Below, in pieces: positions 2,184-57,478 of a stretch of 64,000 bases of DNA (its first letter is position 1; every line of letters begins with the position of its first letter). Under the pieces are notes generated by a model. It was not told where the DNA came from. It saw only the letters and a program-made list of their open reading frames with translations, and searched no databases. Source of the DNA: Verrucomicrobiia bacterium. Lineage in GTDB: Bacteria; Verrucomicrobiota; Verrucomicrobiia; Verrucomicrobiales; Akkermansiaceae. The DNA is taken from assembly GCA_030432565.1 (NCBI GenBank), contig JAUIGV010000026.1, positions 1 to 64,000 on the forward strand. Direction: 5' to 3'. The translations under genes were made by a program, and so were the position numbers.

Positions 2184-2842
2184 ACGGGAAGAAGATCATA
2201 CTTCTCCAGCCGCCTTAGAAACTCACGAACAATATCGGGACCATAATCATCCTGATACTGGTTCAGAGTTTCAAGGTGCTCGCGGCGGCTCACCAGATCA
2301 GGAACGAGAAGCCGGCGACCCACTTCGTATCGGATTTCATAAAGAGGCCGATTCACCTCAAAGAGGACGGCATACCCGGACAAGTCGTAACGTCGGAGAA
2401 CTTCCACCAGGACGGTGTCATGGATCTGCTCCAGAAGCTCAATGCTCGCCTCAATTAACGAGTCTTCAAAATCGGGACCGTTATCACTTTCCTCAAAAAT
2501 CCAAGCAAGCTCCCGCAATCGACCTTTGCCGGTTGCCACGGCACAAGACATCTCCGCAACTTCGTGGGCAGTTTGTGTCGAGGAAAACAAAACCAAGTCC
2601 GCGGGCAGTCGGGAAGACTTGAACATTTGCGAGGCGATCAGAAGTCGCCGGTGTATCGAGTCGACCAAAATCCCAAGGCTCACCTTGTTCCGACTGCGGA
2701 CGGAGCGCTCCTCGACACGAAGCAAGGACACCCTTCCTTCCGTCAAAGCCAGGTCCTTTCTGATTTGATCTTCATCAATATCAAAAAGCCCGCTCAACAC
2801 ATCAGATGTATCGATTAATTGGCTATTTGTGATCTGACTCAT
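2180..2842 (-). CDS. Conserved hypothetical protein, acidic, soluble
   Basis: A 220-residue protein without signal peptide or obvious membrane segment, rich in Leu, Glu, Asp and Arg and probably mostly helical. It opens MSQITNSQLIDTSDVLSG. No catalytic motif or family is recognised. Its stop codon overlaps the pgi stop in a CTAG palindrome. The ATG start at 2842 faces the 280-bp region upstream of the NRAMP-type gene, so the two are divergently transcribed and might share control sequences. Coding nature is supported by length and fit between neighbours. Confidence 0.7.
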   Translation of the reverse strand: MSQITNSQLIDTSDVLSGLFDIDEDQIRKDLALTEGRVSLLRVEERSVRSRNKVSLGILVDSIHRRLLIASQMFKSSRLPADLVLFSSTQTAHEVAEMSCAVATGKGRLRELAWIFEESDNGPDFEDSLIEASIELLEQIHDTVLVEVLRRYDLSGYAVLFEVNRPLYEIRYEVGRRLLVPDLVSRREHLETLNQYQDDYGPDIVREFLRRLEKYDLLPV

Positions 2843-28035: not shown

Positions 28036-29278
28036 CCACTGCCCCGCATTTTTCGCTGAAAAGAGCAATCGTCCGTACCATCGCCCCGCTGTGTTTTTCC
28101 AGTACGGCTCGCGCTCTTGCAATTTGCTCTGTCGGCAGATTGCGAAGTGCAACCACCAGTTCTTCACGGGAAGACACCATGCAAATTCCACCCGCTTCTT
28201 TGAGCTCCGTTACAAGGGGTTCGAAGTTTGCCATCTGGGGTCCGCAGATCACTGGCACGCCGGCGAGAATCGCTTCGGAGGGATTCTGTCCCCCTTCCTC
28301 AAAGAAGCTTTTTCCAATGACCGCGACATCAGCATGAGCGGTCCAGTCCCGCAACTCCCCCGTGCTATCAATCACGAATGACTCACTGCCGGTAGGCTTT
28401 CTAAATTGGCTTCTCAAAATCACGGCACCTTTTAAGGCTTCAGCAACCTCGGTCCGGCGCTCGGCGTGCCGGGGCACGATCACCGGCTGATAGCCCGCTT
28501 CCCGGAAAGCGCCATCGAGATACTCCTCCTCACCCGCAAAAGTTGAGACCGCCATGGCCACCGGCCTCTTTGGAAATTGATCCAGCAGCTCCGAGAATTC
28601 AGGACGCCTCTTCGGCAAAGCAGCACCCGAAGGATCAAACTTCACATTTCCGGTAAGCACTGTCGCTTTCTCACAAACTCCAATTTCCTGCCAGCGAATG
28701 AGATCCTCCCTTTCGGGCACCCCAACATGGCTCAACAACTTCAGGAAAGGCTCCACAAAGCTTCGAAATTTCTTCAAACGCCGACCGGATCGTGGTGAAA
28801 GCCGTGCATTGATCAATCCAATTGGGATCCCCAACCGGTGGGTTTGATAAATCAGATTGGGCCAAAGCTCCGACTCCACCATCACTACCACCCGTGGCTC
28901 CAGGCGCTTCATCACACGACGAATCAAAAAACCAAAATCAAGAGGTGCGTAAATCACCCGAACATCTTTCGGTGCCTTTTCCCGCGCAACCGCCATTCCG
29001 GTCGCAGTCGTCGGCACCAAGACAAAATGATCGCCCGTTTCCTCCCGCCACTTCGTGATCAACTTCAAAGCCAAAAGAACCTCCCCCACGCTCACCGCGT
29101 GAATATAAACCGCTCCCGTTCGTTCGAACTCCGCCTCCCTTGCATAGATTCCAATTCGCTCCAGCAGCCCGCTCCCCCAGCCGTCCCGCCGAAACATCTT
29201 CAACATCCAAAACGGAGCGGCAGCCAGCGCCACCAGAGGGTAAAGAATACTCCAAACACTTAGCACCAAGGTTCTCAT
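28028..29278 (-). CDS. waaA: 3-deoxy-D-manno-octulosonic acid transferase
   Basis: Adds Kdo to lipid IVA at the inner membrane. The 416-residue protein starts MRTLVLSVWSILYPLVALAA (membrane anchor), which fixes the start at 29278. It has PTTATGMAVA, VVVMVESELWPNLI (catalytic Glu region), the LINARLS segment and the C-terminal GGQNPSEAILAGVPVICGP, all typical of WaaA/KdtA. The ATG begins 1 bp after the rsmD stop, so the two are co-transcribed. Confidence 0.94.
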   Translation of the reverse strand: MRTLVLSVWSILYPLVALAAAPFWMLKMFRRDGWGSGLLERIGIYAREAEFERTGAVYIHAVSVGEVLLALKLITKWREETGDHFVLVPTTATGMAVAREKAPKDVRVIYAPLDFGFLIRRVMKRLEPRVVVMVESELWPNLIYQTHRLGIPIGLINARLSPRSGRRLKKFRSFVEPFLKLLSHVGVPEREDLIRWQEIGVCEKATVLTGNVKFDPSGAALPKRRPEFSELLDQFPKRPVAMAVSTFAGEEEYLDGAFREAGYQPVIVPRHAERRTEVAEALKGAVILRSQFRKPTGSESFVIDSTGELRDWTAHADVAVIGKSFFEEGGQNPSEAILAGVPVICGPQMANFEPLVTELKEAGGICMVSSREELVVALRNLPTEQIARARAVLEKHSGAMVRTIALFSEKCGAVVI

Positions 29279-29279
29279 C

Positions 29280-29825
29280 TCAAGATTCCAACTGATAGAT
29301 CGCAATTCGGCTCCGCCCGTAATCCCTGCTTTGCAACAACGAAAGCCCCGCAGGCTCCGGAAGTTCACCCACCGCTTCACGCTCCAAAATCAAAAATCCA
29401 CCTTGCTCCAACCACTGCTCCCACCCTTCCATGGCAATCAAATCACGCGCAGGATCATTCAATCCATCCGCATAGGGAGGGTCTGCAAAAATCAAGTCAT
29501 AGCTCGTCTTTTCGCTTCGAAGAAAGGCTCCCACTTCGCGCTGGATCACCCGTCCGTTTCCGTTACCCGTCTTCTTCAAATTCTCCTCGATAACCCGGCA
29601 CGCTCCACGGTTCTGCTCAACGAAAGTGCATGAAACCGCACCACGACTCAACGCCTCAATCCCCAGAGCCCCCGACCCTGCATAGAGGTCAAGCACTCTC
29701 GCGTCGGGAATCACAGCGGCTAGAATCCCAAAAACCGACTCCCGCACCCGATCAGTGGTCGGACGCGAAACTTCTCGAGGGACCTTTAAAGGATGCCCCT
29801 TGGATGAACCGGCAATAATTCTCAT
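29280..29825 (-). CDS. rsmD: 16S rRNA (guanine-N2-966) methyltransferase
   Basis: SAM-dependent methyltransferase, 181 residues, opening MRIIAGSSKGHPLKVP (the RIIAG...KGR-type start of RsmD), with the SAM site LDLYAGSGALGIEALSRG (about residues 45-62) and the catalytic DPPY in LIFADPPYADG (about 115-118). Acts on 16S rRNA during 30S assembly. Its ATG overlaps the stop of the AsmA-like gene by 4 bp, and it leads into waaA. Confidence 0.94.
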   Translation of the reverse strand: MRIIAGSSKGHPLKVPREVSRPTTDRVRESVFGILAAVIPDARVLDLYAGSGALGIEALSRGAVSCTFVEQNRGACRVIEENLKKTGNGNGRVIQREVGAFLRSEKTSYDLIFADPPYADGLNDPARDLIAMEGWEQWLEQGGFLILEREAVGELPEPAGLSLLQSRDYGRSRIAIYQLES

Positions 29826-41576: not shown

Positions 41577-42554
41577 CTATTTCTTAAAAGCGGCCTCCCG
41601 TTTTTCGTCAATACGAGCCGGCTTCAATTTCTTCCAATCTTCGGGGTTGGGAAGTTTCAGTCGCTTTGTCTTATTGCCATAACGATCGAGATTGGCATTA
41701 AGATCGTCCTCCGTGAGCGGCTTGGATTTCACGCCACCCTCGGGAACCTCCATACCCGCCGACCAGACCAAAGCGTTAAGCACAACCGTCCGAAAACCAT
41801 CAAGCGCCCAGCCATGGTGGTAATGCCCACCGGTAAAGCCAACCCCACGCCCCCCGCCAGGACGCTCGTAGCCCCACATCAGGGCCTGCTCCTTGTTCAA
41901 ACCATCAACACCGTGCTGATTCCAGAGATTGATGTATTTATACATATTCTCACGCGTCGGTGTTGCCGTAACCAAATTGAGAACCTTGTCGCGATCATCG
42001 ATGAACCGCATGTTGTAATAAAACTCATCCAGACAAGTGACTGTTTCCGGCACCCCGTTTCCGACTTCGTGATCCTTTTTCACCTTCATATCGGCAACCC
42101 AATGCGGATTAACCGACCACTTGGACTCCATCGCCCCGCCTATCCAGGGCTGGTAATATTTTTTACCCATCTGAGGATTGGGGTGAACCGCATAGTGCAT
42201 AAACACCATGCCAACGCCTTTCTTTGCAAGCGAATCAAGATACTCCCACTCGCCTGCAATACCGCTCACATTATCAGCAAAGATGAAAATGGAGTCCGCA
42301 TCGTCGAGAACCGACTTGTCTTTCGGCCAGTCCCTGCCAACGACCACCGCTTCGACATTGAGTCCACTTTGCTCATTCAGCGCCTTCGCGAGAAGCATGC
42401 ATCCAGCCCTGAATTCGTGTTCCCCCGACCCGTGGCTTCGATTCCCAGCGATCAGAACGATCTTCTTTTTTTTCGCCTCCTCCTTCTTGGCTGACAAAAA
42501 GAACGGAGTGGTGAGTGCCAGCAAAAGAGGGACAATAAGAGCAAAACGTTTCAT
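41577..42554 (-). CDS. ThuA-like domain protein, secreted
   Basis: A 325-residue protein of the ThuA (trehalose-utilisation-like, glutamine amidotransferase-like) superfamily. Signal peptide KRFALIVPLLLALTTPFFLS. The fold is indicated by VLIAGNRSHGSGEHEFRAGC near residue 33, IFADNVSG and VFMHYAVHPNP. These proteins are abundant in Verrucomicrobiota and Planctomycetes and their reaction is poorly known. The gene lies 52 bp downstream of a sulfatase gene on the same strand. Confidence 0.87.
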   Translation of the reverse strand: MKRFALIVPLLLALTTPFFLSAKKEEAKKKKIVLIAGNRSHGSGEHEFRAGCMLLAKALNEQSGLNVEAVVVGRDWPKDKSVLDDADSIFIFADNVSGIAGEWEYLDSLAKKGVGMVFMHYAVHPNPQMGKKYYQPWIGGAMESKWSVNPHWVADMKVKKDHEVGNGVPETVTCLDEFYYNMRFIDDRDKVLNLVTATPTRENMYKYINLWNQHGVDGLNKEQALMWGYERPGGGRGVGFTGGHYHHGWALDGFRTVVLNALVWSAGMEVPEGGVKSKPLTEDDLNANLDRYGNKTKRLKLPNPEDWKKLKPARIDEKREAAFKK

Positions 42555-42606: not shown

Positions 42607-44001
42607 CTATTTAAGAGCCTTGTATTCCCCAAACACCAGCTCGTCACCATGAAGCTTTGCTTCCGACTTGAGCGCCGCGAAAAGTTTCCTGGCAACCTCC
42701 CTGCCCTTTCCTGTTCGAAGCAGATCCACCTTCTCAAACGGATCTTTTTCCAGGTGATAGAGGCGGGCAATTCCACCGCCGGGATACAGAATCAACTTGT
42801 AACCATCCTTGGTCAGGGCGCGCTGCGCATCCTTGAGATAAGCCGAGTAAATTTGATCACGACCTCTCGACTCGCCTCTTAGAACCGGGATGTAACTCTG
42901 ATACTGGATATGCTCCGGGACTTCCGCCCCGGCAACCTCAAGAGCAGTCGGGACCGAGTCTTGAATATAAATCGGCGCCGAGATTTTCCTACCGGCCTCA
43001 ACTTCCGGCCCCACGACAACGTAGGGAACCCGAATGCTGTGGTCATACATGTTCTGTTTTCCAAGAAGACCGTGACGACCGCAGCCCAGCCCATGGTCCG
43101 CCGTGAAAACGATGTAGGTATTTTCACGCTGACCATTTTTCTCCAGGGTCTCCAAAACCCGTCCAATTTGTGCGTCCAAATGCGTGATTAAAGCGAAGTA
43201 TTCACGACGGGCCACTTGGACCGAATGCTTGGTTCTCGGCATCGGGGCGAGTTTTTCATCGCGCAAACTATGGGGAGCCTTCATCACCTTGCGATAAGGA
43301 TAAGCATCGAGAAAATTCTCGGGCACCTTGATGTCGGAAACCGGATACATGTCGAGATACTCCTGTGGAGACTGTCTTGGATCGTGCGGAGCATTAAAGG
43401 CAAGATAGAAGAAGAACGGCTTCTCATCCTTCTTTGCCATGTTGAGATACCTGATCGCGGTATCGGCCTCGACTTCCGACCAGTGTTTTCCTCCCTTCCA
43501 AAAACCGTTGTTCGACTGATCCGTGGGATCCCAAACATCTTTTTTGCCCTCAAGAGGACGATTGTATCCCTCTTTCACCTGATTGGGCATTCCTGGGCGA
43601 ACATCCCCGACATGATCAAAAAGCGTCTCTGCCTTCATACGAACATGCCACTTTCCGGTCATGTAAGTGGTGTAACCCGCATCGCTCATCAACTGGGGCC
43701 AAAGGCGGCGCTCGCCCATCTTTGCCTCTTCCCTCTGGGCATACCAGAGATGGCGCCCCGTCATCATCATATTGCGGCTCGCCACACAAATCGCACCATT
43801 CCACCCGCCTGAATTGTAGGCGTGGGTGAATTGGGTCCCCGAAGCAAACAACTTGTCCAGATTCGGGGTCTTCACCTCCGTTAGTCCCAACGAGCCTATC
43901 GCCTCGTATGTCATATCGTCCGCGAAAATGAACAGGATATTTGGCTTCTCAGCCGCGGAAACAAGGGAGAGCAGAGCAAGAAATGGAGCGAAGATGCGCA
44001 T
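42607..44001 (-). CDS. Sulfatase, formylglycine type
   Basis: Hydrolyses sulfate esters, probably of polysaccharides, outside the cytoplasm. The 464-residue protein has a signal peptide (RIFAPFLALLSLVSAAE), metal-binding DD in IFADDMTYE (about 27-32) and the modification motif ICVASRNMMMTGRH, where Cys72 would become formylglycine (a Cys-x-Ala-Ser-Arg form of the motif). HGLGCGRHGLLGKQ carries further active-site residues. No formylglycine-generating enzyme gene is in the window. Confidence 0.93.
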   Translation of the reverse strand: MRIFAPFLALLSLVSAAEKPNILFIFADDMTYEAIGSLGLTEVKTPNLDKLFASGTQFTHAYNSGGWNGAICVASRNMMMTGRHLWYAQREEAKMGERRLWPQLMSDAGYTTYMTGKWHVRMKAETLFDHVGDVRPGMPNQVKEGYNRPLEGKKDVWDPTDQSNNGFWKGGKHWSEVEADTAIRYLNMAKKDEKPFFFYLAFNAPHDPRQSPQEYLDMYPVSDIKVPENFLDAYPYRKVMKAPHSLRDEKLAPMPRTKHSVQVARREYFALITHLDAQIGRVLETLEKNGQRENTYIVFTADHGLGCGRHGLLGKQNMYDHSIRVPYVVVGPEVEAGRKISAPIYIQDSVPTALEVAGAEVPEHIQYQSYIPVLRGESRGRDQIYSAYLKDAQRALTKDGYKLILYPGGGIARLYHLEKDPFEKVDLLRTGKGREVARKLFAALKSEAKLHGDELVFGEYKALK

Positions 44002-44095: not shown

Positions 44096-45265
44096 ATGAG
44101 TCGCTCCAATTCTCCAACCCTCAGTCACCGGCTTGAGTATTGTGCCTATCGCGCCTTCGAGGGGATGTTCAGGATATTGTCGCTGGAAACCGTCTTCAGA
44201 CTCGGCGAATTTTCAGGATTGATTGTGCATCGCTTCAATCCCGGCCGGAGACAGCAAGTGATCCGAAACCTCCGCCTCGCATTTGGCGACGAAAAATCAC
44301 GACCGGAAATCGAACAACTCGCCGAAGAGGTTTTCGAGCGCACCGGAGCCAATTTCCTGACTTCACTTAAGATTCCTTTTCTCAGTGATGAGGAAATTCT
44401 AGGCAGGCTTGACTTTGAAGGATTGGACGAAGTCTTTGAGGCCACCGATAAAGGCGGCATTGTCATGGTCTCTCCGCACATGGGAAATTGGGAACTACTT
44501 GCCCAGGCCATCTTCCTGGCCGAGGGGAAATTTAAAGTTGGAACACACTACCGCCCTCTCAACAACGCCCTGATCAATGCCGTCGTCGAACGCCGGAGAA
44601 AGAGACGGGGCCTACAACTGTTCGCCAAAAAGTCCTCCACCCACCAAATCGCCAGCTTCGTTCGGGAAGGCGGCGCCATGGGCATCCTGGCCGACCAACG
44701 GGTTGGTGGGCGCGGAGCGGCCTGTCTCTTTTTTGGTCGACCCACCACCTGCTCGCCACTCCCTCACTTGATTGCCAAGCGGGGAAAAGGCCTCCTCGTC
44801 AGCCTCTCTTGTACAACGGTCGGAACGGCCCGCTGGCAGATTTCCTTCCGGCACATCCCGACAATCTCCGCCCAAGCATGTGCCGATAGCATCGAACAGG
44901 ACTGGCGCCGATCACCGGTCGACGTTTTTTGGTTTGAAGACCGCTGGCGAATCCAGGGAAAGCAACCGCTTGCTTTTCTCAACAAATATCAGGACGACCT
45001 TGAGATTCCCCGCCCCCTTCGGTCCGTGAACCTCGCCCCTGAAAATTGCGAGCTACCCTACCCCGGTCGCCTGATCACCCAAGAAGATCAGGAAGTGGAC
45101 TTCGATGAAAGCGACCAATTACTCCGCCGGAAGCTCAACGAAATCGCGGATTCCAGCACGACTCCGGTGGACGTCTTTCTTTGCCCAAGATCTCAAATGA
45201 AACGCATTAAAAAGCTCTCAGGAAAAATACTGGTCCTTCCGGCCGAAGAAGACTACCTATCGTGA
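44096..45265 (+). CDS. Lipid A secondary acyltransferase, LpxL/HtrB family
   Basis: A 389-residue membrane acyltransferase. The HX4E catalytic motif is in SPHMGNWE (His128, Glu133), preceded by a hydrophobic N-terminus, and [11 protein letters not shown] and VFWFEDRWR match later LpxL blocks. It adds an acyl chain to Kdo-lipid A. About 80 residues beyond the usual family end form a non-membrane tail of unknown role. It nearly touches the UDP-glucose dehydrogenase gene (4-bp GTGA overlap if the GTG start is used). Confidence 0.88.
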
Positions 45266-45291
45266 AGAATTCACCACTTTACAAAACACAA

Positions 45292-46650
45292 ATGAAAATC
45301 TGCTGCATCGGAGCCGGCTATGTTGGAGGTCCCACCATGGCAATGATCGCCACCAAATGTCCGGATATCGACGTCACCGTCGTGGACATCAATGCCGAAC
45401 GAATCGCAGCCTGGAACAGCAATGCGCTTCCAATCTACGAGAAAGGTTTGGACGAACTCGTCATCGCCGCCCGCGGAAAAAATCTCTTCTTCAGCACCGA
45501 CGTTGATCAAAGCATTGATGAGGCCGACATCATCTTTATTTCGGTCAATACTCCCACCAAAACATACGGAACCGGTGCCGGCAAAGCTTCCGACCTCAAG
45601 TTCATCGAACTCTGCGCCCGTAAGATCGCCGAAGTCTCAACCTCCGATAAGATTGTCGTCGAGAAATCCACCCTGCCCGTCCGCACCGCCGAGACCATTC
45701 GCACGATTCTCAACAACTGCCCCTCAAATGTAAATTTTGAGGTCCTCTCCAACCCTGAATTTCTTGCCGAGGGCACCGCAATCGAAGATCTCCTCGACCC
45801 GGACCGAGTCCTCATCGGGGGGGCTGAAACTCCCAAAGGACAAGCTGCCATACAGTCCTTGGTCGATGTCTATGCCCGCTGGGTTCCGCGAGAAAAAATC
45901 CTGACGACAAACGTCTGGTCATCCGAGCTGTCCAAGCTCACGGCCAACGCCTTCCTCGCGCAGCGGATCTCATCCATCAATGCCATCTCTGCTCTCTGTG
46001 AAGCCACCGAGGCAAATGTTGACGAGGTTGCCAGCGCCATCGGGACCGACTCCCGTATCGGCCCGAAGTTCCTCAAATCCTCAATCGGTTTCGGTGGTTC
46101 CTGCTTCCAAAAAGACGTCCTCAATCTGGTGTACCTTTGCGAACACTACGGTCTCAAAGAAGTTGCCGAGTATTGGGAGCAGGTTATTAAAATGAATGAC
46201 CACCAGCGCAGCCGCTTCGTCCAGCGCATCGTCAAAACCCTCTTCAACACCGTGTCCGGCAAGAAGATCGCCATGCTTGGGTTTGCCTTCAAAAAAGATA
46301 CCAATGACACCCGCGAATCTTCCGCGATTTACATCTGTCGGGACCTGATCGAGGAACAGGCTGAAGTTCATATTTATGATCCCAAGGTCACCCGCGAACA
46401 AATCTATCACGATCTGGAAATAGATGAAAATCATCCTTTGGTGCACATTGCCTCTTCCGCCGAAGAAGCCTGCGAAGGAGCCCACGCCCTCACGGTCGTG
46501 ACCGAGTGGGATGAATTCAAAACCCTCGATTATCAAAAGATTTTCGAACAGATGCTCAAGCCCGCCTTCGTCTTTGACGGTCGCAATATTCTCGACCTCG
46601 AAGCTCTTCGAGAGATCGGATTCAGCACCCACGGAGTCGGTAAAGCCTAG
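45292..46650 (+). CDS. ugd: UDP-glucose 6-dehydrogenase, animal-like type
   Basis: Oxidises UDP-glucose to UDP-glucuronate. The 452-residue protein opens [14 protein letters not shown], and blocks such as [57 protein letters not shown] and [12 protein letters not shown] match animal UGDH very closely, far more than the roughly 390-residue E. coli type. The catalytic Cys is about residue 271. An in-frame GTG at 45262 would add 10 residues; ATG 45292 matches the homologue start. The product can feed uronic acid into LPS. Ends sharing CTAG with the convergent stop. Confidence 0.95.
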
Positions 46651-48800
46651 TGGTAAAGATAGACCGGCGACTCGCCAACTTCGTTAAGCTCGATCCGTTT
46701 CCCGAAGACATCCAGAGCATGGTCAAAATCGACCGGCCACGGCCCTGCATATGTGCGGCGATTGCACCACATCAGAGTGACCTGACCACCGTCTTTTTTG
46801 AATCGCAGGGCGTAGACCTCCCGACCCAGTTCCAGCCGCTCCACAAAAGTGGCCTCACCCAACTCCTTGAGAAAAGTCCGCAACATCGCAAAAGCCGGAC
46901 GCTCACGCCACCCCTCCGGAGATCTCTCGTCCACCAACCCAAAGCCGTGGGCAACGAGTCGCCACCAATACACCTGATCCACAAATCCGGAACAAAGGGT
47001 GAGGACCAAATACCTTAGCATATAAAATCCATAATACTCTTCCGTCACATGGACCCTGCTTCCCCGGGCATGCTTTGGCTGATAGGTCGCCGAAACCGGT
47101 GACCATTCTCCGGTCCACTCCAAAGGCCAATTCACTTCAGAAACAACCACCCGTTCTTCACAGCGGCCCGACCACCGGGCAATCGCCTTCAACAGCCCCG
47201 CCTTCTCCACCGTCCCAAAAGCGCCCTGCTTGTTTTCAGGAGCACCCCGTCGATCAACATAGAGGTGATGAGACAAGGCATCATAGTGAAACCCCTTGGG
47301 AGTTGTTGCCAAAGCCCCCATCAAATAATGGTATTCGAAATCAATGCATGCCGGACCGGAAAACCGGATCTTGGGAAACTTCTCCCGCAGCGCTTTAAAA
47401 GGAGCCACCAGGTCAGAATGCTCCTTCAAACTGTGCACGCCCCATTTCACCCGATTTACGACATGGCAGATCTCCACCATGGCCACTTTTCCTGCCATCC
47501 GGCTGAGCACGAATTCCAAAAATTCCCTCCATGATTCGGGACTGAGTACTGCCTCTCGATCCTGAAGCAAGGCAACCATGATTTCCACGCCCTCGCCATG
47601 AAGACGGTCCAAAACCTCAAGCCCCTTCTCCCACTGTTCCCGGCCTTCATGGTGACCAAACCTCATTAAAACCGGCACCCTTCCCAATTCCTCCAAGAAC
47701 TTCAATTGCGGTTCGATTTCCAAATCCGCCATCTCCACCGACATCCCAATCCGCCCTCGCAAGTCAACCTTCCGCTGAAAGGCCCCTGCCATCTGTCGAC
47801 GATACTCCCGCCAAACACCTGGCAGTGCCCTCGCCGTCGCCCCCGCGATCCGGATATGATTCCACATCGACTGACATTTTTTGCGCTCGCGGCGTTCCAG
47901 AGTTATCGCAGCTTGGGCAGATTTCCGGTCCCAGACCCAGACATCCTTCATCTTCAATCCCTTCGACTTCCGCCCCCGCCGCCAGGTCTTAATGGGGTGC
48001 CGCCACTTCCGGCTTCGTGTCCACCATTCAAATCTTCGGCGGGCCTTCTTAAACTCCTTCCGAAATTCCAAAGGAACCTTCACCCCCCAATAAATACGAA
48101 CCAACACTTCAAGGAAGGCCGAAGGCATGAGCAACCGCCCGAAATCAAGGGCCCGCTCCCGCATCTCCAGCTTCTTTCGAATCCTCCCCCGATTTAGATC
48201 GATCACATTCACCTCACCCCACTCATCCCCAATCCGCGGAGTCAGCTCCATATTCTGATTCCCCAAATCCCGATGACAAAACCCGGCGTCGTGCATCTTC
48301 CTCATCGTCGCCGCCACTTTTTCCAGCAACCCCACCAAATGATCCGCCGGTCCCCGATCCTGATACACTCCCTTCAACTCGTCTCTCAGACTCTTCAAGC
48401 CCTTCAGGTATTCCGATAAGTAATAGCTCTCCACCAACCTGCCACCTTCCCAACGATCGAAGTAGGCAAAAGGCGACGGGGTCCCCACGCCATGCTCTTG
48501 CAAAAAACAGGCAGCGGCAAAAGAGCGCGCTGCCTTTGACCCCCTCTCCCGGTCGTAACGATCCTTCCAGCCACCTTGCTTCCCAAATGCCTTTACCGCG
48601 ACCTCCAACTTGCGACCATCGTGTTCAAAATTCAAAACCACCACCCGGTGCCGACCTTTGGCCAAAACTCCATCCGTAGCCGAAAAAATCTCCTCCCGCA
48701 GCCCCTCCATCCTAACCCCATCAAAGAACTGTGCCAAATCACGACGGACCTCACCCGTGAATCCATGATGATCATAGTCTTGAAAGCCCGCTTGCCCCAT
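46647..48800 (-). CDS. LPS-kinase/glycoside-hydrolase-like fusion protein
   Basis: A 717-residue cytoplasmic protein. The N-half (about 1-250) is a WaaP/InaA-type kinase: Lys in VAVKAFG (about 70), HRDLGNQN (about 176-183) and Asp in VIDLNRG (about 201). The C-half (about 360-717) looks like a TIM-barrel glycosidase, with candidate catalytic Glu in VEICHVVN (about 443) and SEVNWPLEW (about 555). No signal peptide is seen. Start ATG 48800; a TTG at 48848 is possible. Its stop overlaps ugd in CTAG. Role inferred: phosphorylating core sugar with a linked sugar-trimming or binding domain. Confidence 0.75.
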
Positions 48801-49002
48801 CCACCTTTCCTTACGCCCCGCGGTATTCAAAGGCAACGATTTTAGCAAAAACAGGGTGCCCGCCCCATCCCTGCCTCACTGCATTCTCCAGACTCCAGCC
48901 AATGGGATTCGCTCTCGACGAAGAACCGACTCCGCAACTACGCTTCCACAATCCAAATCACCAACAGTGGACCTTTGGAGCGAAACATAAAAGCAGCATC
49001 CC

Positions 49003-50070
49003 GTGAACCTCGGCATCTTCCTCCAGCACTATTTTCCCTACGGGGGACTGCAACGTGATGCCGTGAGATTCGCCCGGCATGCCGGCAACGCCACCCTCGT
49101 CGTCTCAACCTCCACTTGCCAACCTGCCGGAATCAAGCTCCTCCAGCTAAACTCCGGAGGCCACACGAACCACGGCAAACTCGCCCGATTCAGCCGCGAT
49201 TGCCAAAATCTCAATCAGTTCAGCGCAAACATCGCCTTCAGCCGTATCCCCGGTAGCAATTTCCACTTTTGCGGCGATCCCTGCTACCGCGAACGATTTC
49301 TAAAAAAGAAGCCCGCCATTGCCGGTCTTCTCCCCCGATACCGCTTTTACCTTGAAAACGAACGTCACATCTTCGGCCCTGACTCCCCGACTCACATCTT
49401 CTTCCTCTCCGAAGCATCCGTGGTCCCCTTTCAAGAGCACTATAACCTTCAATCTTCTCGCTACACCATCCTCCCTCCATGGCTCGACCGCCCGGCCACT
49501 CCTGCTCCTGAAAACCCGCCCATTCGCGCCGAACTTAACCTACCAAGAGACACCCCGATCCTCCTTTTCGTTGCCTCGAACTACCAACTCAAAGGGCTCG
49601 ATCTCGCCCTGCAATCCTTGGCCCTGCTGACCGGGGAAGGGAAAAAATGCCACCTCGTCATCTGCGGACAAGATGATCCAGCTCCCTTCAAAAAACTAGC
49701 CGACTCACTTCAGCTTACACCCCGGACTCACTTCATGGGACCCCGCGATGACATCCCGGCGATCATGATGCAGAGCACCCTTCTCATCCATCCGGCACGC
49801 ATGGAAGCAGCCGGCATGGTCCTAACCGAGGCCCTCACCCACCAACTCCCTACTCTCTGCACCTCCCACTGCGGCTACGCTCAACACACCATCGCAGCTG
49901 GATGTCTTCACCTATCCAACGCCCCGTCTGCTGAAGAAATCGCAGCCAAAACAGAGGAATCACTCGCCCAACGTCAGGCTATCATCCCTAAAATCCGAGA
50001 TTGGTGCTCACAACCCGGACGTTACGAAACCGCCGAACTCATGCTGGCAAAAATCGCTCAGGCTCGTTGA
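49003..50070 (+). CDS. Glycosyltransferase family 4, WaaG-like
   Basis: A 355-residue GT-B transferase starting at GTG 49003: MNLGIFLQHYFPYGGLQRDA, the FPFGGLQRDF-type opening of WaaG (LPS core glucosyltransferase I). The donor site is AAGMVLTEALTHQLPTL. It likely adds the first hexose to core heptose or its equivalent. It overlaps the convergent kinase gene by 32 bp and is divergent from the fusion gene at 48800. Confidence 0.87.
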   Translation: MNLGIFLQHYFPYGGLQRDAVRFARHAGNATLVVSTSTCQPAGIKLLQLNSGGHTNHGKLARFSRDCQNLNQFSANIAFSRIPGSNFHFCGDPCYRERFLKKKPAIAGLLPRYRFYLENERHIFGPDSPTHIFFLSEASVVPFQEHYNLQSSRYTILPPWLDRPATPAPENPPIRAELNLPRDTPILLFVASNYQLKGLDLALQSLALLTGEGKKCHLVICGQDDPAPFKKLADSLQLTPRTHFMGPRDDIPAIMMQSTLLIHPARMEAAGMVLTEALTHQLPTLCTSHCGYAQHTIAAGCLHLSNAPSAEEIAAKTEESLAQRQAIIPKIRDWCSQPGRYETAELMLAKIAQAR

Positions 50071-50668
50071 GCTGGGACCGGATCCCGTCCTGGAAAGATT
50101 GCCACTCGTCCGCGCTCAAAACACCGGGGTCACACTCTTCATTCATCCTGACAACGCGGGACCAAAATGACTTACGAACCACCGACATCCCCTCCTTAAC
50201 CTCCACATCGATCCAGTAAAGATTCCCCTCTCGATCAGACATCACGTTGCGAAAATGGAAATCAACGAAAAGAATTCCATGATTTGCCATCACCGCCAAC
50301 TCGCGCTCCAGGTTCTTTAAAATCGTGGCCCGCAGCGGCCCCTTGAGAGCCTCACTGACATCCTCAACATCGTGAACATATCGATAGAGCAAGGCCGCCT
50401 CGAAAGGGCCGGTTCCCGGATAAAAACTCAGCACTCCCAGCGGCTCCGGCGTCATCAGGCCCACCTTGATTAAACTCCTCATCGACCTGTCCTGCTTATG
50501 AGCTTTTGTCTTCTTGAACAAGATCCGCATCCACCCCAAAAGATATCCCTTCGAGGGAAACGCCTTGGCGACCTGATCGTCCTCCATCAAAACCATCAGC
50601 CCTCCGTTCGACTCATTGCGATGAAGGACCTTCCAGTCTTTAAGCCAACCAGATACTGAAACGGGCAC
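50039..50668 (-). CDS. LPS kinase-like protein (InaA/WaaP superfamily)
   Basis: A 209-residue protein from GTG 50668. The catalytic-loop analogue is GILFVDFHFRNVMSD (the usual His of HxD is Val-Asp-Phe-His here) followed by the Asp in LYWIDVEV, as in sugar kinases of the LPS core. It is shorter than WaaP and lacks a clear glycine loop. Function as active kinase is thus uncertain. The tail overlaps the end of the WaaG-like gene by 32 bp. Confidence 0.7.
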   Translation of the reverse strand: MPVSVSGWLKDWKVLHRNESNGGLMVLMEDDQVAKAFPSKGYLLGWMRILFKKTKAHKQDRSMRSLIKVGLMTPEPLGVLSFYPGTGPFEAALLYRYVHDVEDVSEALKGPLRATILKNLERELAVMANHGILFVDFHFRNVMSDREGNLYWIDVEVKEGMSVVRKSFWSRVVRMNEECDPGVLSADEWQSFQDGIRSQLNEPERFLPA

Positions 50669-50784
50669 TCGAAATTACAGAACTTGCACCACTACAAAGC
50701 AAGGGAATATCCTGTTCTTTCATCTTCCAGCGACACGACTTCCGGGATGAGATGACCCTTGAGCAAATGGAAAATCAATGAAAG

Positions 50785-51537
50785 ATGACCAAACAGACCA
50801 TGAGCCACGAATCCCGAACGCAACGATCGCTCACGCACCGGGAGTATCAACTTCGATCAACCCTTGACGAGCCCACGGCCAGACAACTTCTCGATGACAT
50901 CATCGAAAAATCATACTTGGTTCAGAAAATTTTCAGAGACAGCCGGGCTACCTATGCCGCCCATCTGCAAGTCGGAGATGAACAACTCATCCACAAAATC
51001 CCGAGAGCCAGATTGAAACGAACCTGGGAAAAACTGATCACTGTGATTCGCGATAGCGAGAGCTTCAGGACATTCGACAATTTGCAGTTGATGAACCAAC
51101 TCGGGTTCAAAGCCCCAGCGCCTCTATTGGCCGGAGAAAAACGACGGATGGGTTTTGTCGTCGACTCTTTCTGCTGCTATCGCTTCGAAGAAGGGAAAGA
51201 GGCCGGACCAAACGATGCGGAACAAGTCGTCAACGAACTGCTAAGACTCCACGAAAAAGGGTATTTGAGAACCGACGCAAAAGCCGCCAACTTCCTGATA
51301 ACCGACAAAGGCGTGACCTTCATCGACTTTAGATTGAAAAAGCCCGGCCTGTTTCCGAAACTCAAAAAACAAATGGAACTGGCGCGCCTCGCCCGAGTCT
51401 ACCCCGAGAGCCTCGCATACATTCCAGAGAACGTTCGGACCTCCCGCTCGTTTAAATTGGCGACTTGGCTGGAGCGAAAAAACATCGAGATCAAGGCGGC
51501 CAGACGCCGCGTTAAACGGGCATTCAAGTCGAGCTAG
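50785..51537 (+). CDS. LPS core heptose kinase, WaaY/RfaY-like
   Basis: A 250-residue kinase-fold protein. The catalytic region LRTDAKAANFLITDKGVTFIDFRLKKP fits the WaaY pattern (Asp in the catalytic loop, Asn, then IIDF/IDF metal Asp); the full stretch is at about residues 169-195. WaaY phosphorylates heptose II of the LPS core. Alternative start ATG 50800. It begins a run of four plus-strand genes that goes on to 54678, after a 116-bp divergent gap to the other kinase. Confidence 0.83.
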   Translation: MTKQTMSHESRTQRSLTHREYQLRSTLDEPTARQLLDDIIEKSYLVQKIFRDSRATYAAHLQVGDEQLIHKIPRARLKRTWEKLITVIRDSESFRTFDNLQLMNQLGFKAPAPLLAGEKRRMGFVVDSFCCYRFEEGKEAGPNDAEQVVNELLRLHEKGYLRTDAKAANFLITDKGVTFIDFRLKKPGLFPKLKKQMELARLARVYPESLAYIPENVRTSRSFKLATWLERKNIEIKAARRRVKRAFKSS

Positions 51538-51657
51538 TCTCAGAACAGCTTAAAATCCTCGAGACCAGTCGCCCCGGTTAATATCCATGCGTTCCAATTC
51601 GATTTGTGTATGGTTTCTGCGAGCCCCATACCACTCTTCACCCTCTCACAGTTCCTC

Positions 51658-52497
51658 ATGACTTCGAAGACATCATCCATTCGGAACCAGAAAAAGCACT
51701 TCGATAGAGGACTGGCTCTCTACTCGGACAAGGTCGCTCTCTTCCCCGCACTCACCGAGGTCCTCCAAAACCTCGATTCCATCGCGAAATCCGATACCTT
51801 GAAAATCTATAAAAGAGAGAGGCGCAAAGCTGTCCTTCTCATGCACCGACCGTCTATGGAAGGAGGATCCCTTGTAATCAAGGGCTTCCCTTTGAAGAAG
51901 CTCAGCAATCAAATCCGTCCCGGTCGATTTGGTCGAATGGAAGCTCACAACATGCTGGAGGCAGAGCGACTGAAGATTAAATCTCCCCGCTATCTGGGTT
52001 TCTTCGAGCTTCGAAGATTCGGCCTCACCAAAGCCAACGGTGTCATCATGGAACCACTCGAGTCCCATAAAACCCTGATGGAATTTGCCGAAGAGAATCC
52101 CGCCAACGCCAGGAAGGCCTTCACTCTCGCCATACCCACCATTGCCCAACTCTACCAACTTGGCGCCAACCACATTGATGTCAGCCCTCATAACATCATG
52201 GCGGAGAACCTCAGCGATACTCCCTACCTCATCGACTGGCAGGCCTGCCGGTTCATTTCGCCACGCAACAATCACCAGCTCATTCTTCAAGCCGCCCAAT
52301 TCCTCCGCTATCTCAATGGGATCTATTCGGCCGCCTCCCGGGAGGAATGGCTTTCCACTCTTTTTCAAACCGTCAATCCCGACCTCCCCAAGGAGACGTT
52401 CATCGAAAACGCCCTTCACTACGCCCAAGAACCCCGACCTAGCAACGAATTCCGCTACCGCCTCAACTTCGACCTCAATCAACCGCAAAAAAACTGA
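51658..52497 (+). CDS. LPS kinase-like protein, KdkA/InaA type
   Basis: A 279-residue protein with a kinase-type catalytic region GANHIDVSPHNIMAEN (HxD as HID, then Asn) and metal Asp in YLIDWQACRF, as in Kdo kinase and aminoglycoside-type folds. An extended N-terminus with an upstream TTG/ATG (51604/51610) is possible; the ATG at 51658 begins the charged, kinase-like region. Next gene starts 5 bp later. Substrate probably a core sugar such as Kdo or heptose. Confidence 0.75.
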   Translation: MTSKTSSIRNQKKHFDRGLALYSDKVALFPALTEVLQNLDSIAKSDTLKIYKRERRKAVLLMHRPSMEGGSLVIKGFPLKKLSNQIRPGRFGRMEAHNMLEAERLKIKSPRYLGFFELRRFGLTKANGVIMEPLESHKTLMEFAEENPANARKAFTLAIPTIAQLYQLGANHIDVSPHNIMAENLSDTPYLIDWQACRFISPRNNHQLILQAAQFLRYLNGIYSAASREEWLSTLFQTVNPDLPKETFIENALHYAQEPRPSNEFRYRLNFDLNQPQKN

Positions 52498-53725: not shown

Positions 53726-54678
53726 ATCAACTTCACCTGAACATCATCGCTCGAACTAACGGAGTGGGCTTGGATCGCGATGTCGACCTCATCCACGCGA
53801 CCGCAACCGGAGTCGGCTTCAAAGTCACGGTGAGTCACTGCCGGGAGATTCCCTTTTACTCGAATTGGCTCCCTACTAAACCGCGATTCGACGCGAACAT
53901 CTTCCTCGAGCGAATCTTCCCGCGTTGGCTTGGCTCCGCACGCCTCAACTTCCTGATCCCGAATCAAGAACGGTTCCCCCGCCGACATATCCCACGCCTC
54001 AGGAAGATCGACCACGTCCTCTGCAAGAGTCAACACGCACTTCAGGTCTTTGGAAAAAGACACCCTTCCTGCAAATTTCTCGGCTTCACCTCTACTGACC
54101 TCTGCGACACTACGGTCGTCAGGAAGAAAAACGCCATCCTTCACCTTGCGGGCCGCAGCACGTTGAAGGGGACGGAAACCGTCCTCGAGCTTTGGAAAAA
54201 ACACCCTGAGTGGCCCACTCTCACCCTTCTCCAGCACAAGGATAATGCTCCCGATGAAGTCCCAAAAAACGTAAATCTCATCTCTGACTACTTGAGCGAC
54301 GAGGACATCATCAAACTCGTTAATGAGCATCCCATCCATCTCTGCCCTTCCCTCTCCGAAGGCTGGGGACACTACATCGTCGAGGCGATGAGCTGCGGAG
54401 CCACCGTAATCACCACCGACGGACCTCCCATGAATGAACTCGTACAGGCTGATCGCGGAATTCTCGTCGATGCTCCCGAGACCGAACCTCGACACCTTGG
54501 CACAAACTTCAAAGTAGATCCGAAGGGCCTCGAAGCAGCCATCGAAAGAGCAACCACCATGTCTCAGGAGGATCTTGATTTACTTCAATTGAAAGCCCGA
54601 ACCTGGATGCTGAAAAATCATAAGGACTTTGAAGTTCGTTTCCCGGAACTCGTTTCGAGTCTCATTTCTTCCTCTTAA
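53722..54678 (+). CDS. Glycosyltransferase family 4
   Basis: A 318-residue GT-B transferase from GTG 53722, overlapping the previous stop by 4 bp. The donor site SEGWGHYIVEAMSCGATVITTDGPP matches GT4 enzymes (E-x7-E type); the segment is at about residues 212-236. It is somewhat short, lacking part of the N-terminal acceptor domain of WaaG. Acceptor is likely the LPS core. Shares TTAA with the convergent msbA stop. Confidence 0.84.
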   Translation: MNQLHLNIIARTNGVGLDRDVDLIHATATGVGFKVTVSHCREIPFYSNWLPTKPRFDANIFLERIFPRWLGSARLNFLIPNQERFPRRHIPRLRKIDHVLCKSQHALQVFGKRHPSCKFLGFTSTDLCDTTVVRKKNAILHLAGRSTLKGTETVLELWKKHPEWPTLTLLQHKDNAPDEVPKNVNLISDYLSDEDIIKLVNEHPIHLCPSLSEGWGHYIVEAMSCGATVITTDGPPMNELVQADRGILVDAPETEPRHLGTNFKVDPKGLEAAIERATTMSQEDLDLLQLKARTWMLKNHKDFEVRFPELVSSLISSS

Positions 54679-56420
54679 GCCTCGGCGCGCTCAGAAACAA
54701 TCACTCCCTGGTCCAATTCAATCACGCGGCTCGCAATCTTGGTCGTGGACAGACGATGGGCAATCAGCAAAGTCGTCCGTCCTTTCACCAAATCCACTAA
54801 TGCTGACTGGATAATCGCTTCGCTTTCATTATCGAGCGCACTCGTTGCCTCGTCCAAAAGAAGAATGGGCGCATCCTTCAAGAAGGCCCGGGCGATCGCG
54901 ATGCGCTGCCGCTGACCGCCCGACAAGCTTCTTCCCATTTCAGAGACTGCAGTGTCATAGCCATGCTTCTGCTTCAGGATAAAATCGTGGGCATTCGCCT
55001 TCTTTGCCGCACTGATGACCTCTTCCTCATTGGCATCAGGGCGCCCAAGTAGAATATTCTCTCGAATGGTTCCTTGAAACAAAACAGCAGTCTGCGACAC
55101 GACTGCAATTTGATCCCGGAGCTCCTTCTTGGCCCATTCCCGCACATCGATCCCACTGACCGTCACGCCTCCCGACTTCACATCATAGAATCGCGGAATC
55201 AAATTGAAGAGACTCGACTTTCCTCCTCCACTCGGCCCAATTAAAGCCACACACTGGCCGGGCTCAATCGTTAGGTTGATGCCGCGAAGGACGACTTCGT
55301 CACCATAGCCAAAAGAGACGTCTTTAAAAATAACCCGACTTTCAAAATTCTCCGGGCGCCTCGGATGCTCGGGATCATCCAAATGATCCACCGCGAGGGA
55401 AATTTCCTCCAACCGCTCGAGTGAGGCATCGGCCTGCTTCAGATTTGCCTGAATCGCACCCAACTTTTTCACAGGCTCGTAGCAGAGATAAAGCGCCATC
55501 GCGATGGCCATAAAACTCGAAAGTTTCATTCCCTGTTGCGCTCCCAGATAGATCGCCACCGTCAGGCCAACCACCGAAACAAACTCCACCGAAGGCGAAA
55601 TCAATTGCTTGTATTTCACCACCTTCATTGAGTAGCGAATGATCCCCTTGATCCGGCCACGGAATTTTTGAACAACCGCATGCTGGAGATTGTAAGCACG
55701 AATTTCGAGGGGGGCCTGAATCGACTCTGAAATTTGCCCGCTCAAATCACCGGCACTGGCTTGTAATTTTCGAGCCTTATCCCCCAAGCGCTTCGCGATC
55801 GCACGCAGAGGCAGAACACACAGTGGAATTGAGAAAATTGAAAAGAGCACGAGGGAGGCCCCTTGGTTCGAAACAGCCTCGGAGACCAAAAAGACCAGAG
55901 CTGCAATCAAAACCGCCGGTTGTTTAATGAGATCAACCGCCACTTTGCCTACCGTCGATCGAACCACCTCGGCATCCCCCACAAGGCGGGCAAGCAGATC
56001 TCCCGCCTGCCTCTTTTGAAAAAAGGCAACCGGTAAAGTCTGCAACTTTGTAAAGACCTCATCGCGGACCTGTTCCAAAAAACGAAACCCACAATAACTG
56101 ATGAGATAAGTATTCAAAAACCCTCCGACAGCGCGAAAGAGAAACATCAGAGGAAGCCACGCACAAGCAGCGGCCAGCACCCACTCGGAAGGCAGGCTCT
56201 CAAACCAATTCATGAGCCCTTCCACAAAGAAACTGTTTTCATTCTCGCCCCCCCCGGCATCAACCTGATCATCCTCAAAGATGAGAGGCAGCACCACCTT
56301 CGCGGCCAGGGGCAACCCGGCTCCAGTCGCCGCAGCGTAAACCAATCCGGCCAAGACACTTCCTGCAAGCTGCCACTTGACGGGCTTGAAGTATTTAAAA
56401 TAGGGCTGAAAGCGCTTCAT
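54675..56420 (-). CDS. msbA: ABC exporter, MsbA type (lipid A-core flippase)
   Basis: A 581-residue half-transporter with six membrane helices (about 20-320) and an ATPase domain with Walker A LIGPSGGGKSSLFNL, signature LSGGQRQRIAIARAF, Walker B ILLLDEATSAL and H-loop LIAHRLST. Length and architecture match MsbA, and the location among LPS genes supports the lipid A-core role over a drug exporter. The stop overlaps a glycosyltransferase stop in TTAA. Confidence 0.9.
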   Translation of the reverse strand: MKRFQPYFKYFKPVKWQLAGSVLAGLVYAAATGAGLPLAAKVVLPLIFEDDQVDAGGGENENSFFVEGLMNWFESLPSEWVLAAACAWLPLMFLFRAVGGFLNTYLISYCGFRFLEQVRDEVFTKLQTLPVAFFQKRQAGDLLARLVGDAEVVRSTVGKVAVDLIKQPAVLIAALVFLVSEAVSNQGASLVLFSIFSIPLCVLPLRAIAKRLGDKARKLQASAGDLSGQISESIQAPLEIRAYNLQHAVVQKFRGRIKGIIRYSMKVVKYKQLISPSVEFVSVVGLTVAIYLGAQQGMKLSSFMAIAMALYLCYEPVKKLGAIQANLKQADASLERLEEISLAVDHLDDPEHPRRPENFESRVIFKDVSFGYGDEVVLRGINLTIEPGQCVALIGPSGGGKSSLFNLIPRFYDVKSGGVTVSGIDVREWAKKELRDQIAVVSQTAVLFQGTIRENILLGRPDANEEEVISAAKKANAHDFILKQKHGYDTAVSEMGRSLSGGQRQRIAIARAFLKDAPILLLDEATSALDNESEAIIQSALVDLVKGRTTLLIAHRLSTTKIASRVIELDQGVIVSERAEA

Positions 56421-56488: not shown

Positions 56489-57478
56489 GTGAGTAAAGAT
56501 CCGGCTGTGGATTTCATCGCCAAAGGCCGCAAAACCCTCGAAATAGAAGCAACCCAACTGCTCATGCTCGCGGGACGTCTCGACGACTGCTTCGTCCAAT
56601 CCGTCGAGACACTGGAAGAGACCCTGAACGCAGGGAAAAAGATCGTCGTGATCGGCGTTGGTAAATCCGAAAGCATCGGCAATAAATTTGTAGCTACGCT
56701 CAATAGTACCGGCGCCACTGCCGTCAATCTGAGTTGCCAAAATGCCATTCACGGAGACCTCGGACTCCTTTCGATCGGAGACCTTGTTGTCGCCCTGAGC
56801 TACTCGGGGGAAACCAGCGAGATGATCGCACTTCTTCCACACGTTAAAAAACGTGCCTCGCGGATCATCTCGATCACCGGAGCACCCGCCTCCACCCTCG
56901 CCAAACACAGTGATCTCGTTCTCGACACCTCTGTCGAGGAAGAGGCCTGCCCGCTGCAATTGGCGCCAACCTCCAGCACCACCAACATGCTTGGACTCTG
57001 CGATGCCCTCGCCATGGTCCTTCTTGAAAAACGGGGCTTTCGCACCGAAGACTTTGCCGAACTCCACCCTGGTGGAAACCTGGGCAAATACCTCCTCACC
57101 CGGGTCTCGGATATCATGAGGACAGGAGACGCGCTCGCGAAAACGCCCAGCGACTCCCTGGTCCAGGATGCCGTCTTAAAAATGCTGGAATGTCGCGCCG
57201 GCGCGGCTGTTGTCGTGAACTCCGACGACTCGCTCGCCGGGATATTCACTCATGGAGATTTCGTGCGAGGTTACCAATCAAACCGCGAAATCGGAGACTC
57301 TCCCGTCATCGAGCACATGACCCGGAATCCCATCTCCATTCACCACGATGACTTGGCCGTTGAAATCGTCCGAACCCTTCGCGAAAACCGCATCGATGAC
57401 CTTGTTGTCGTGAATGATCAAAACCAAGCCGTCGGCCTTGTGGATGTTCAGGACCTCTCGCGACATGGGTTGAGCTAG
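56489..57478 (+). CDS. kdsD: Arabinose-5-phosphate isomerase
   Basis: First step of Kdo synthesis, ribulose 5-P to arabinose 5-P. The 329-residue protein (GTG start) has a SIS domain (VVIGVGKSESIGNKF, ALSYSGETSEM, HGDLG) at about residues 35-165 and a pair of CBS domains at about 200-325. This matches KdsD/GutQ; context with LPS genes favours KdsD. Divergent from msbA, with 68 bp between the starts. Confidence 0.93.
   Translation: MSKDPAVDFIAKGRKTLEIEATQLLMLAGRLDDCFVQSVETLEETLNAGKKIVVIGVGKSESIGNKFVATLNSTGATAVNLSCQNAIHGDLGLLSIGDLVVALSYSGETSEMIALLPHVKKRASRIISITGAPASTLAKHSDLVLDTSVEEEACPLQLAPTSSTTNMLGLCDALAMVLLEKRGFRTEDFAELHPGGNLGKYLLTRVSDIMRTGDALAKTPSDSLVQDAVLKMLECRAGAAVVVNSDDSLAGIFTHGDFVRGYQSNREIGDSPVIEHMTRNPISIHHDDLAVEIVRTLRENRIDDLVVVNDQNQAVGLVDVQDLSRHGLS

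Follow-up and report, generated by a model that had tools for sequence, protein, structure and literature searches.

A Kdo/WaaP-type kinase joined to a PslG-like barrel without the acid/base glutamate in Verrucomicrobiota

The DNA analysed here (the window) comprises the first 64,000 nucleotides of contig JAUIGV010000026.1 from a Verrucomicrobiia bacterium of the Akkermansiaceae (assembly GCA_030432565.1) and contains, on the reverse strand at 46647-48800, a gene that codes in one chain of 717 amino acids for a kinase of the Kdo/WaaP type (Kdo, 3-deoxy-manno-octulosonic acid) followed by a barrel whose predicted fold resembles that of the glycosidase PslG. The frame is open for 733 codons (46647-48848, reverse strand), with a TTG at 48848 as its upstream limit and the stop codon at 46647-46649. 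The ATG at 48800 is the likely start, because the purine-rich AGGAAAGG, recognized by eye in the sequence, lies upstream, and the coordinates given in the initial annotation of this DNA are therefore right. Residue numbers refer below to the 733-residue frame (P0001), and subtracting 16 converts them to the 717-residue protein. Full-length homologues of the fusion, 53-79% identical, are found in independent assemblies, in addition to a contig-cut one with 83% identity, and for this reason the kinase and the barrel can be taken to form one chain, as had been annotated. An origin of the fusion in misassembly or a frameshift, for which nothing beyond the draft state of the assemblies can be adduced, has practically no chance of being right and is already refuted by the presence of the fusion in many independent genomes and distinct clades. 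Stops are present inside the fusion or barrel gene copies of some relatives (loci L015, L016 and L017). Genome G118 carries a second copy on another contig, which is uninterrupted but lies at the contig edge.

The kinase half (47949-48800, reverse strand; residues 17-300), supported by Pfam, a structural model and conservation, matches the Kdo/WaaP family PF06293 with 48.2 bits (cut-off 21.3; E=1.2e-12). The kinase-type residues named in the initial annotation (Lys70, HRDLGNQN with Asp178, and Asp201 in the 717-residue numbering) are all present; in the numbering used here, K86, D194, N199 and D217 are the catalytic Lys, the HRD Asp, the Asn and the metal-binding Asp, and they are conserved in 47, 45, 46 and 46, respectively, of 47 distinct kinases from fused homologues. 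A structural model of residues 17-375 (pLDDT 71.0, mostly above 80 in the kinase part and below 50 in the linker) has a WaaP-like fold, which aligns with WaaP (6dfl) over 228 residues with a Z score of 17.1 and a root-mean-square deviation (rmsd) of 4.0. The window kinase shares family, fold, catalytic residues and a lipid A/core neighbourhood with the core kinases WaaP/RfaP and KdkA (PF06293; 6dfl), whereas it does not reach the equivalog cut-offs for RfaP and the Kdo kinase and carries a C-terminal barrel. Judged by its sequence, it is a member of PF06293 and of no named equivalog.

The barrel half (46650-47948, reverse strand; residues 301-733) is, according to the model and the fold search, a (β/α)8 barrel of the PslG/GH39 type (GH, glycoside hydrolase) with a C-terminal β domain. 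It contains a linker helix (residues 328-353; 47790-47867, reverse strand) that corresponds to helix 28-53 of the barrel model and has low confidence in the kinase-linker model; in those relatives in which kinase and barrel are encoded by separate genes, a hydrophobic segment is the counterpart of this helix. The AlphaFold2 model of the barrel, built with 7 sequences (mean pLDDT 76.9, pTM 0.81), consists of a β/α barrel plus a β domain, and its best Foldseek match is PslG (E=2.5e-13, TM 0.63/0.66), in agreement with the glycosidase-type TIM barrel originally predicted for this half. Structure alignment (VIA-align) with PslG (9g17_A) gave a Z of 26.7 and an rmsd of 3.1 over 350 aligned residues with 16% identity, and the Bacteroides GH39 protein 5jvk reached a Z of 26.4. 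Pfam returned no match for the window barrel at E<=10, no Glyco_hydro family (the GH39 model PF01229 included) was among the Pfam matches of 17 members at that threshold, and a PDB sequence search with the barrel gave no significant family; the lowest E values in PDB (0.022 and 0.0049) belonged to designed repeat proteins aligned with the linker helix, and the sole match of GH type was a stretch of 5jvk (E=0.072). Because of these sequence searches, the fold of the barrel is known only through structure prediction. Assignment to the heparanase/β-glucuronidase, GH30 or GH51 types was discarded, as their Z scores (about 19-22) are clearly below that of PslG; the heparanases and β-glucuronidases of the fold search presumably belong to GH79.

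PslG from Pseudomonas aeruginosa (GH39; 5bx9, 4zn2 and 9g17) resembles the window barrel in having a barrel plus a β domain (Z 26.4-26.7, rmsd 3.1, about 350 residues aligned), in being encoded with polysaccharide synthesis genes and in having a Glu at the nucleophile position (Glu276 in PslG). PslG has been placed mainly at the inner membrane (PMC9075953), and its catalytic residues are identified in that paper and in PMC11912335 as Glu165 (acid/base) and Glu276 (nucleophile). The window barrel differs from PslG in its low identity, in the lack of the acid/base Glu (Glu165 in PslG), in its NRxKW, DFE and YVDRR..PEN motifs and in being joined to a kinase; it shares the predicted fold of GH39/PslG, and its residues do not fit membership of this family as an active hydrolase.

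Conservation in the barrel was measured in 56 of 65 aligned domain rows, after removal of eight rows with fewer than 280 residues (the divergent fusions L083 and L084 among them) and one that was more than 90% identical; the set includes the partial row L003 and the broken-gene row L015, and five rows with the reverse domain order (L119-L123) were added later, outside the 56. The barrel unit opens with a WDxxSxQ motif (residues 306-312; 47913-47933, reverse strand), present in fused and split forms alike, in which W306, D307, S310 and Q312 are kept in 51, 52, 49 and 51 of the 56 rows, with gaps in 3-4 of them. The register of the active site was taken from true GH relatives, which have WNE at β-4 (acid/base) and TE at β-7 (nucleophile), with hhalign probabilities of 97.7 for L068 and 97.6 for L082. 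The acid/base position, at the end of β-4, is V463 in the window (47460-47462, reverse strand) and is occupied by Ala in 45 rows, Val in 6, Thr in 4 and Gly in 1, never by Glu, which is absent from all 61 rows (out of the 65) that cover the site. The nucleophile position, at the end of β-7, is E571 (47136-47138, reverse strand), a Glu in 53 of 56 rows. Two catalytic Glu, Glu443 and Glu555 in the 717-residue numbering, had been proposed at first: both exist, and the second is E571, whereas the first, E459 (47472-47474, reverse strand; Glu in 49 rows, His in 4 and Gln in 3), is a strand residue of β-4 located four residues ahead of the acid/base position, and hence not the acid/base.

Since the acid/base Glu is missing throughout the family, ordinary retaining hydrolysis is unlikely, and so is the coupled trimming or editing of sugars that the initial annotation had suggested. 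Three further motifs are almost invariant: NRVKW (residues 465-469; 47442-47456, reverse strand), with N, R and W in all 56 rows and K in 55; DFE (503-505; 47334-47342, reverse strand), after β-5, with D in 56 and both F and E in 55; and YVDRR..PEN (530-539; 47232-47261, reverse strand), after β-6, with R533 and P537 in 56 and E538 in 55. An ordinary endoglycosidase that trims the core oligosaccharide could have shifted its acid/base elsewhere, for instance to D503 or E505, both in the DFE motif, and the PslG fold and the conserved nucleophile position are compatible with such an enzyme; we find it quite improbable, given that the canonical acid/base is absent from 56 of 56 rows, that the nucleophile is also absent in the reverse-order clade and that the window barrel has no GH match in Pfam.

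Forward, split and reverse-order members have in common NRx[KR]W, DFE and L[YF].[DE]R...P[ER]. Conservation is higher at the cleft-side (C-terminal) ends of the barrel strands than at their N-terminal ends (3.03 versus 2.15 bits; Mann-Whitney p=2.4e-6, calculated on neighbouring positions that are not independent), an excess contributed by strands 3-8, with none at strands 1 and 2. This strong conservation of the cleft indicates that in most members the barrel has a selected function and is not a decaying pseudoenzyme; the cleft is selected for something other than textbook retaining hydrolysis. One of the GH relatives, L082 (837-2891, forward strand), resembles GH enzymes, carries a CBM9 domain, retains the WNE acid/base and also has an NRDKF segment; it is possibly near the ancestor of the barrel family. 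In the alignment of L082, the WNE segment is instead inserted before NRDKF, which resembles NRxKW, so that the acid/base could have been lost by a small deletion and not by substitution; the Glu is absent either way.

The nucleophile position is less uniform when other domain orders are considered, as it is occupied by His in five reverse-order fusions from other families, by Ser in two of genus g12 and by Tyr in the contig-cut L073, which groups with the reverse-order set. This bears on the possibility that the barrel is a non-canonical retaining domain for glycosyl transfer or transglycosylation, with E571 as nucleophile and the same core glycan as the kinase, in which the acid would be dispensable if the donor had a good leaving group (a sugar phosphate or a nucleotide sugar). 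The retention of E571 in 53 of 56 rows while the acid/base is missing in all 56, the many near-invariant polar residues of the conserved cleft and the existence of one GT4-kinase-barrel chain (L080) are consistent with glycosyl transfer. We regard it as a possible but rather unlikely activity, because reverse-order homologues with His or Ser instead of E571 still keep NRx[KR]W and DFE, so that the function shared by the barrels does not need E571, because the locus already has glycosyltransferases, and because no precedent was found in the literature searched.

Whole-protein searches found matches in 35 of 145 genomes of the window's family, some of them through the kinase alone, and the close relatives carry the labels Verrucomicrobiales, Akkermansiaceae and Roseibacillus; a contig scan with the window protein alone reaches only such close relatives. 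Of the 387 genomes of the phylum, 90 were matched by a profile of the barrel at E<=0.001, and for 62 of these the match reached E<=1.3e-54; none of the genomes listed for genus g3 (Akkermansia, by inference only) had a match. A larger barrel profile (A3) matched 27 of 141 genomes of the family, with one match in the window's own genome. Eight weaker profile matches were scanned, of which five (L082 among them) gave weak matches to GH39/42/10/5-type families, two are kinase-barrel fusions (L083 and L084) and one, L070, has no family; the latter (1199-2542, forward strand) is a distant barrel relative of 448 amino acids without NRxKW, and no kinase was detected in the 3.5 kb fetched around it. 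Among 72,556 plasmid records only two matched, weakly and in the kinase half, and none of 56 pattern matches in viral contigs was confirmed.

Gene arrangements were counted for 72 distinct barrel domains (those that scored >=190 with the profile and spanned >=280 positions, everything below either limit being left out). The order is kinase-barrel in 57 and barrel-kinase in seven, and in six the barrel is a separate gene directly behind a kinase gene, four of these in genus g9 and two in family f5; the other two are L015, a forward fusion with a stop, and L073, cut by the contig end. In an IQ-TREE phylogeny, the reverse-order set (plus L073) makes up one starred group, the forward set (plus L015) another and the split set a third, and arrangement changes 4 times on the tree compared with a mean of 14.6 after shuffling. 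A single origin of the split form is not claimed, because the program warns that long-branch attraction may have brought its two groups, f5 and g9, together. The occurrence of the two domains fused in opposite orders and adjacent as separate genes is strong evidence that kinase and barrel work together.

Additional domains were detected in three fusions by a Pfam scan of those with long or selected frames. L080 (6284-9676, reverse strand), from one genome of family f45, is a GT4-kinase-barrel triple fusion in a frame of 1131 amino acids, and L078 (3611-6178, forward strand) and L115 (6371-8965, forward strand), from two genomes of family f42, have a TsaE domain ahead of kinase and barrel. TsaE is an ATPase domain of t6A biosynthesis, and the L078 fusion adjoins a gene for an AIRS-domain protein. 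In L079, L085, L086 and L119, the extended N-terminal parts look like untranslated high-GC frame and were not accepted as domains. Loci L071 and L095 belong to the same genome.

In the window, the fusion gene is convergent with a UDP-glucose/nucleotide-sugar dehydrogenase gene (45262-46650, forward strand), next to which is an LpxL-like lipid A acyltransferase gene (44096-45265, forward strand; Pfam Lip_A_acyltrans, E=3e-36), and divergent from a GT4 glycosyltransferase gene identified by Pfam (49003-50070, forward strand). Beyond the GT4 gene are genes for a small lipopolysaccharide (LPS)-kinase-like protein (50039-50668, reverse strand; NCBIfam 3-deoxy-manno-octulosonic acid kinase, E=4.6e-9, 35.6 bits against a cut-off of 142), a WaaY-like kinase (50785-51537, forward strand; E=2.6e-5, over the cut-off) and a Kdo/WaaP-like kinase (51604-52497, forward strand; E=2.9e-5, over the cut-off), so that the locus has four LPS-type kinases, the fusion and three small ones side by side at 50039-52497. 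Further away are an MsbA-like ABC transporter (54675-56420, reverse strand; TIGR02203, E=2e-120, 403 bits against a cut-off of 602), a SIS+CBS protein (56489-57478, forward strand), which we take to be KdsD, of the arabinose-5-phosphate isomerase type, and waaA, coding for the Kdo transferase (28028-29380, reverse strand), the only match to it found in this genome. The LPS-type locus that had been annotated is in this way corroborated. An SGSH-like sulfatase (42607-44001) and a ThuA-domain protein (41577-42554) are also encoded beside the LPS genes, likewise in L033, L087 and L090.

The neighbourhood was surveyed in 55 loci (54 plus the window), each cluster being named by one representative; in six of them the greedy choice of open reading frames gave no barrel, although the domain is present in another choice of frame. 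LpxL-like and GT4 genes are each found in 14 loci, a full-length MsbA-like gene in 13, a YrbL-like kinase in seven, a SIS+CBS protein in six and a sugar dehydrogenase in five, and most of these genes come from loci of the window's family. Beyond this family, LpxL-like genes are near three loci and MsbA-like genes near four (three of f5, from two genomes, and one other), which leaves three of the 14 LpxL loci and one of the 13 MsbA loci in other classes. In L076 (genus g9, split form) a Cons_hypoth95 methyltransferase gene, waaA, the kinase gene and the barrel gene follow one another, and the kinase stop and the barrel start overlap in ATGA. WaaA lies within about 30 kb of the fusion or barrel gene on the same contig in at least six of 63 genomes (G000, G044, G058, G094, G346 and G425). 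The neighbours (LpxL, MsbA and KdsD, plus WaaA in one split operon) suggest a role in the assembly of lipid A and the Kdo core.

WaaA is above the cut-off in 62 of the 63 carrier genomes. The window's own genome encodes WaaA but lacks an HldE-type heptose kinase (21.4 bits; cut-off 345). HldA-like matches of full length (>=266 bits, a limit set at a gap in the score list) are present in 46 of the 63; only five of these exceed the curated cut-off, and the 13 tested genomes of the window's family have none. These counts favour Kdo or another common inner-core sugar over heptose as the substrate, although this is not decisive; in PMC13135019, mass spectrometry led to the assignment of a heptose, three Kdo and phosphates to the lipooligosaccharide of Akkermansia muciniphila. 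As to location, the hydropathy of the window protein reveals no membrane-spanning stretch (the highest 19-residue mean, 1.35, is inside the barrel), and the simplest reading would be that fusions are cytoplasmic, with a barrel that touches the membrane.

With these data, we propose, with about even confidence, that the protein is an inner-core kinase of the cytoplasmic side, most likely for Kdo, with a built-in barrel that reads the glycan; its substrate, the binding role and the cytoplasmic location of the barrel are the parts that we infer. At the inner membrane, the kinase half would add phosphate to one sugar, most likely Kdo, of the lipid A-core under construction, before the latter is flipped by MsbA. 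The barrel, which would derive from a PslG/GH39-like enzyme, no longer has the general acid/base needed for hydrolysis, and its cleft of conserved Arg, Lys, Asp and Glu residues might hold the acidic inner-core glycan, either to present it to the kinase or to gate the kinase.

Several observations weigh against this proposal. Human PRPK/Bud32 slightly outscores WaaP in the fold comparison of the kinase (Z 18.5 versus 17.1) and, together with the TsaE fusions in two genomes of one family, leaves room for a non-sugar substrate. The kinase could then act on a target other than LPS (a protein, or in a KEOPS-like role), with the barrel as its sugar sensor, for which PRPK/Bud32 as best fold match and the N-terminal TsaE domains of L078 and L115 would count; this is in our view unlikely, as the kinase half matches Kdo/WaaP much better than Bud32 by sequence (E=1.2e-12 versus 0.0075) and as the gene lies in a lipid A/Kdo neighbourhood. 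The proposed core kinase with its glycan-reading barrel also has to be reconciled with scores below the NCBIfam equivalog cut-offs (RfaP, 38.7 bits versus 170; Kdo kinase, 31.4 versus 142), with an LPS neighbourhood that, in a survey without a random-locus control, stands out in the window's family and f5 and is sparse elsewhere, and with the fact that co-occurrence with WaaA is weak evidence, being expected in most LPS-bearing genomes. On the side of the barrel, six split barrels have near the N-terminus, where the fusions have their linker helix, a hydrophobic segment (mean hydropathy 1.7-2.5) that could put the barrel in the periplasm, apart from a cytoplasmic kinase, and the retention of E571 in 53 of 56 rows exceeds the need of a pure binding site, while the reverse clade lacks it. 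In addition, the divergent kinase-barrel fusions L083 (1586-3490, reverse strand) and L084 (2534-4639, reverse strand), both outside the 56 rows, have DEx[RA]W in place of NRxKW, and L083 also lacks DFE; the cleft is for this reason not universal, and these two proteins may be decaying or differently specialised.

Glycosidase barrels that miss part of the catalytic pair and serve as binding domains are known in the Klotho-type pseudoglycosidases, which belong to a different GH family, are animal receptors and are not fused to kinases; their likeness to the kinase-linked barrel would be one of working principle, by analogy only. No description of a kinase-barrel pairing was found in the literature searched (titles and abstract beginnings, among the matches listed), which also yielded little on core assembly in Verrucomicrobiota, with one verrucomicrobial core structure. 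In well-studied Gram-negative bacteria, phosphorylation of the core stabilises the outer membrane. A more far-reaching and improbable idea is that the phylum has two-enzyme LPS-core machines, in which the PslG-derived barrel without acid/base would catalyse glycosyl transfer or transglycosylation on an activated (phosphorylated) sugar, chained to a core kinase and, once, also to a GT4; if true, a glycosidase fold would have been turned into a biosynthetic enzyme of core assembly. The conserved and unnamed kinase-barrel pair, found in both orders and beside Kdo and lipid A genes, offers a handle on how the verrucomicrobial core is built and phosphorylated, as well as a natural test case for the repurposing of a glycosidase barrel after the loss of its acid/base. 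That the pair recurs phylum-wide, whichever domain comes first, suggests a new kind of cooperation in cell-surface assembly, other than ordinary sugar trimming.

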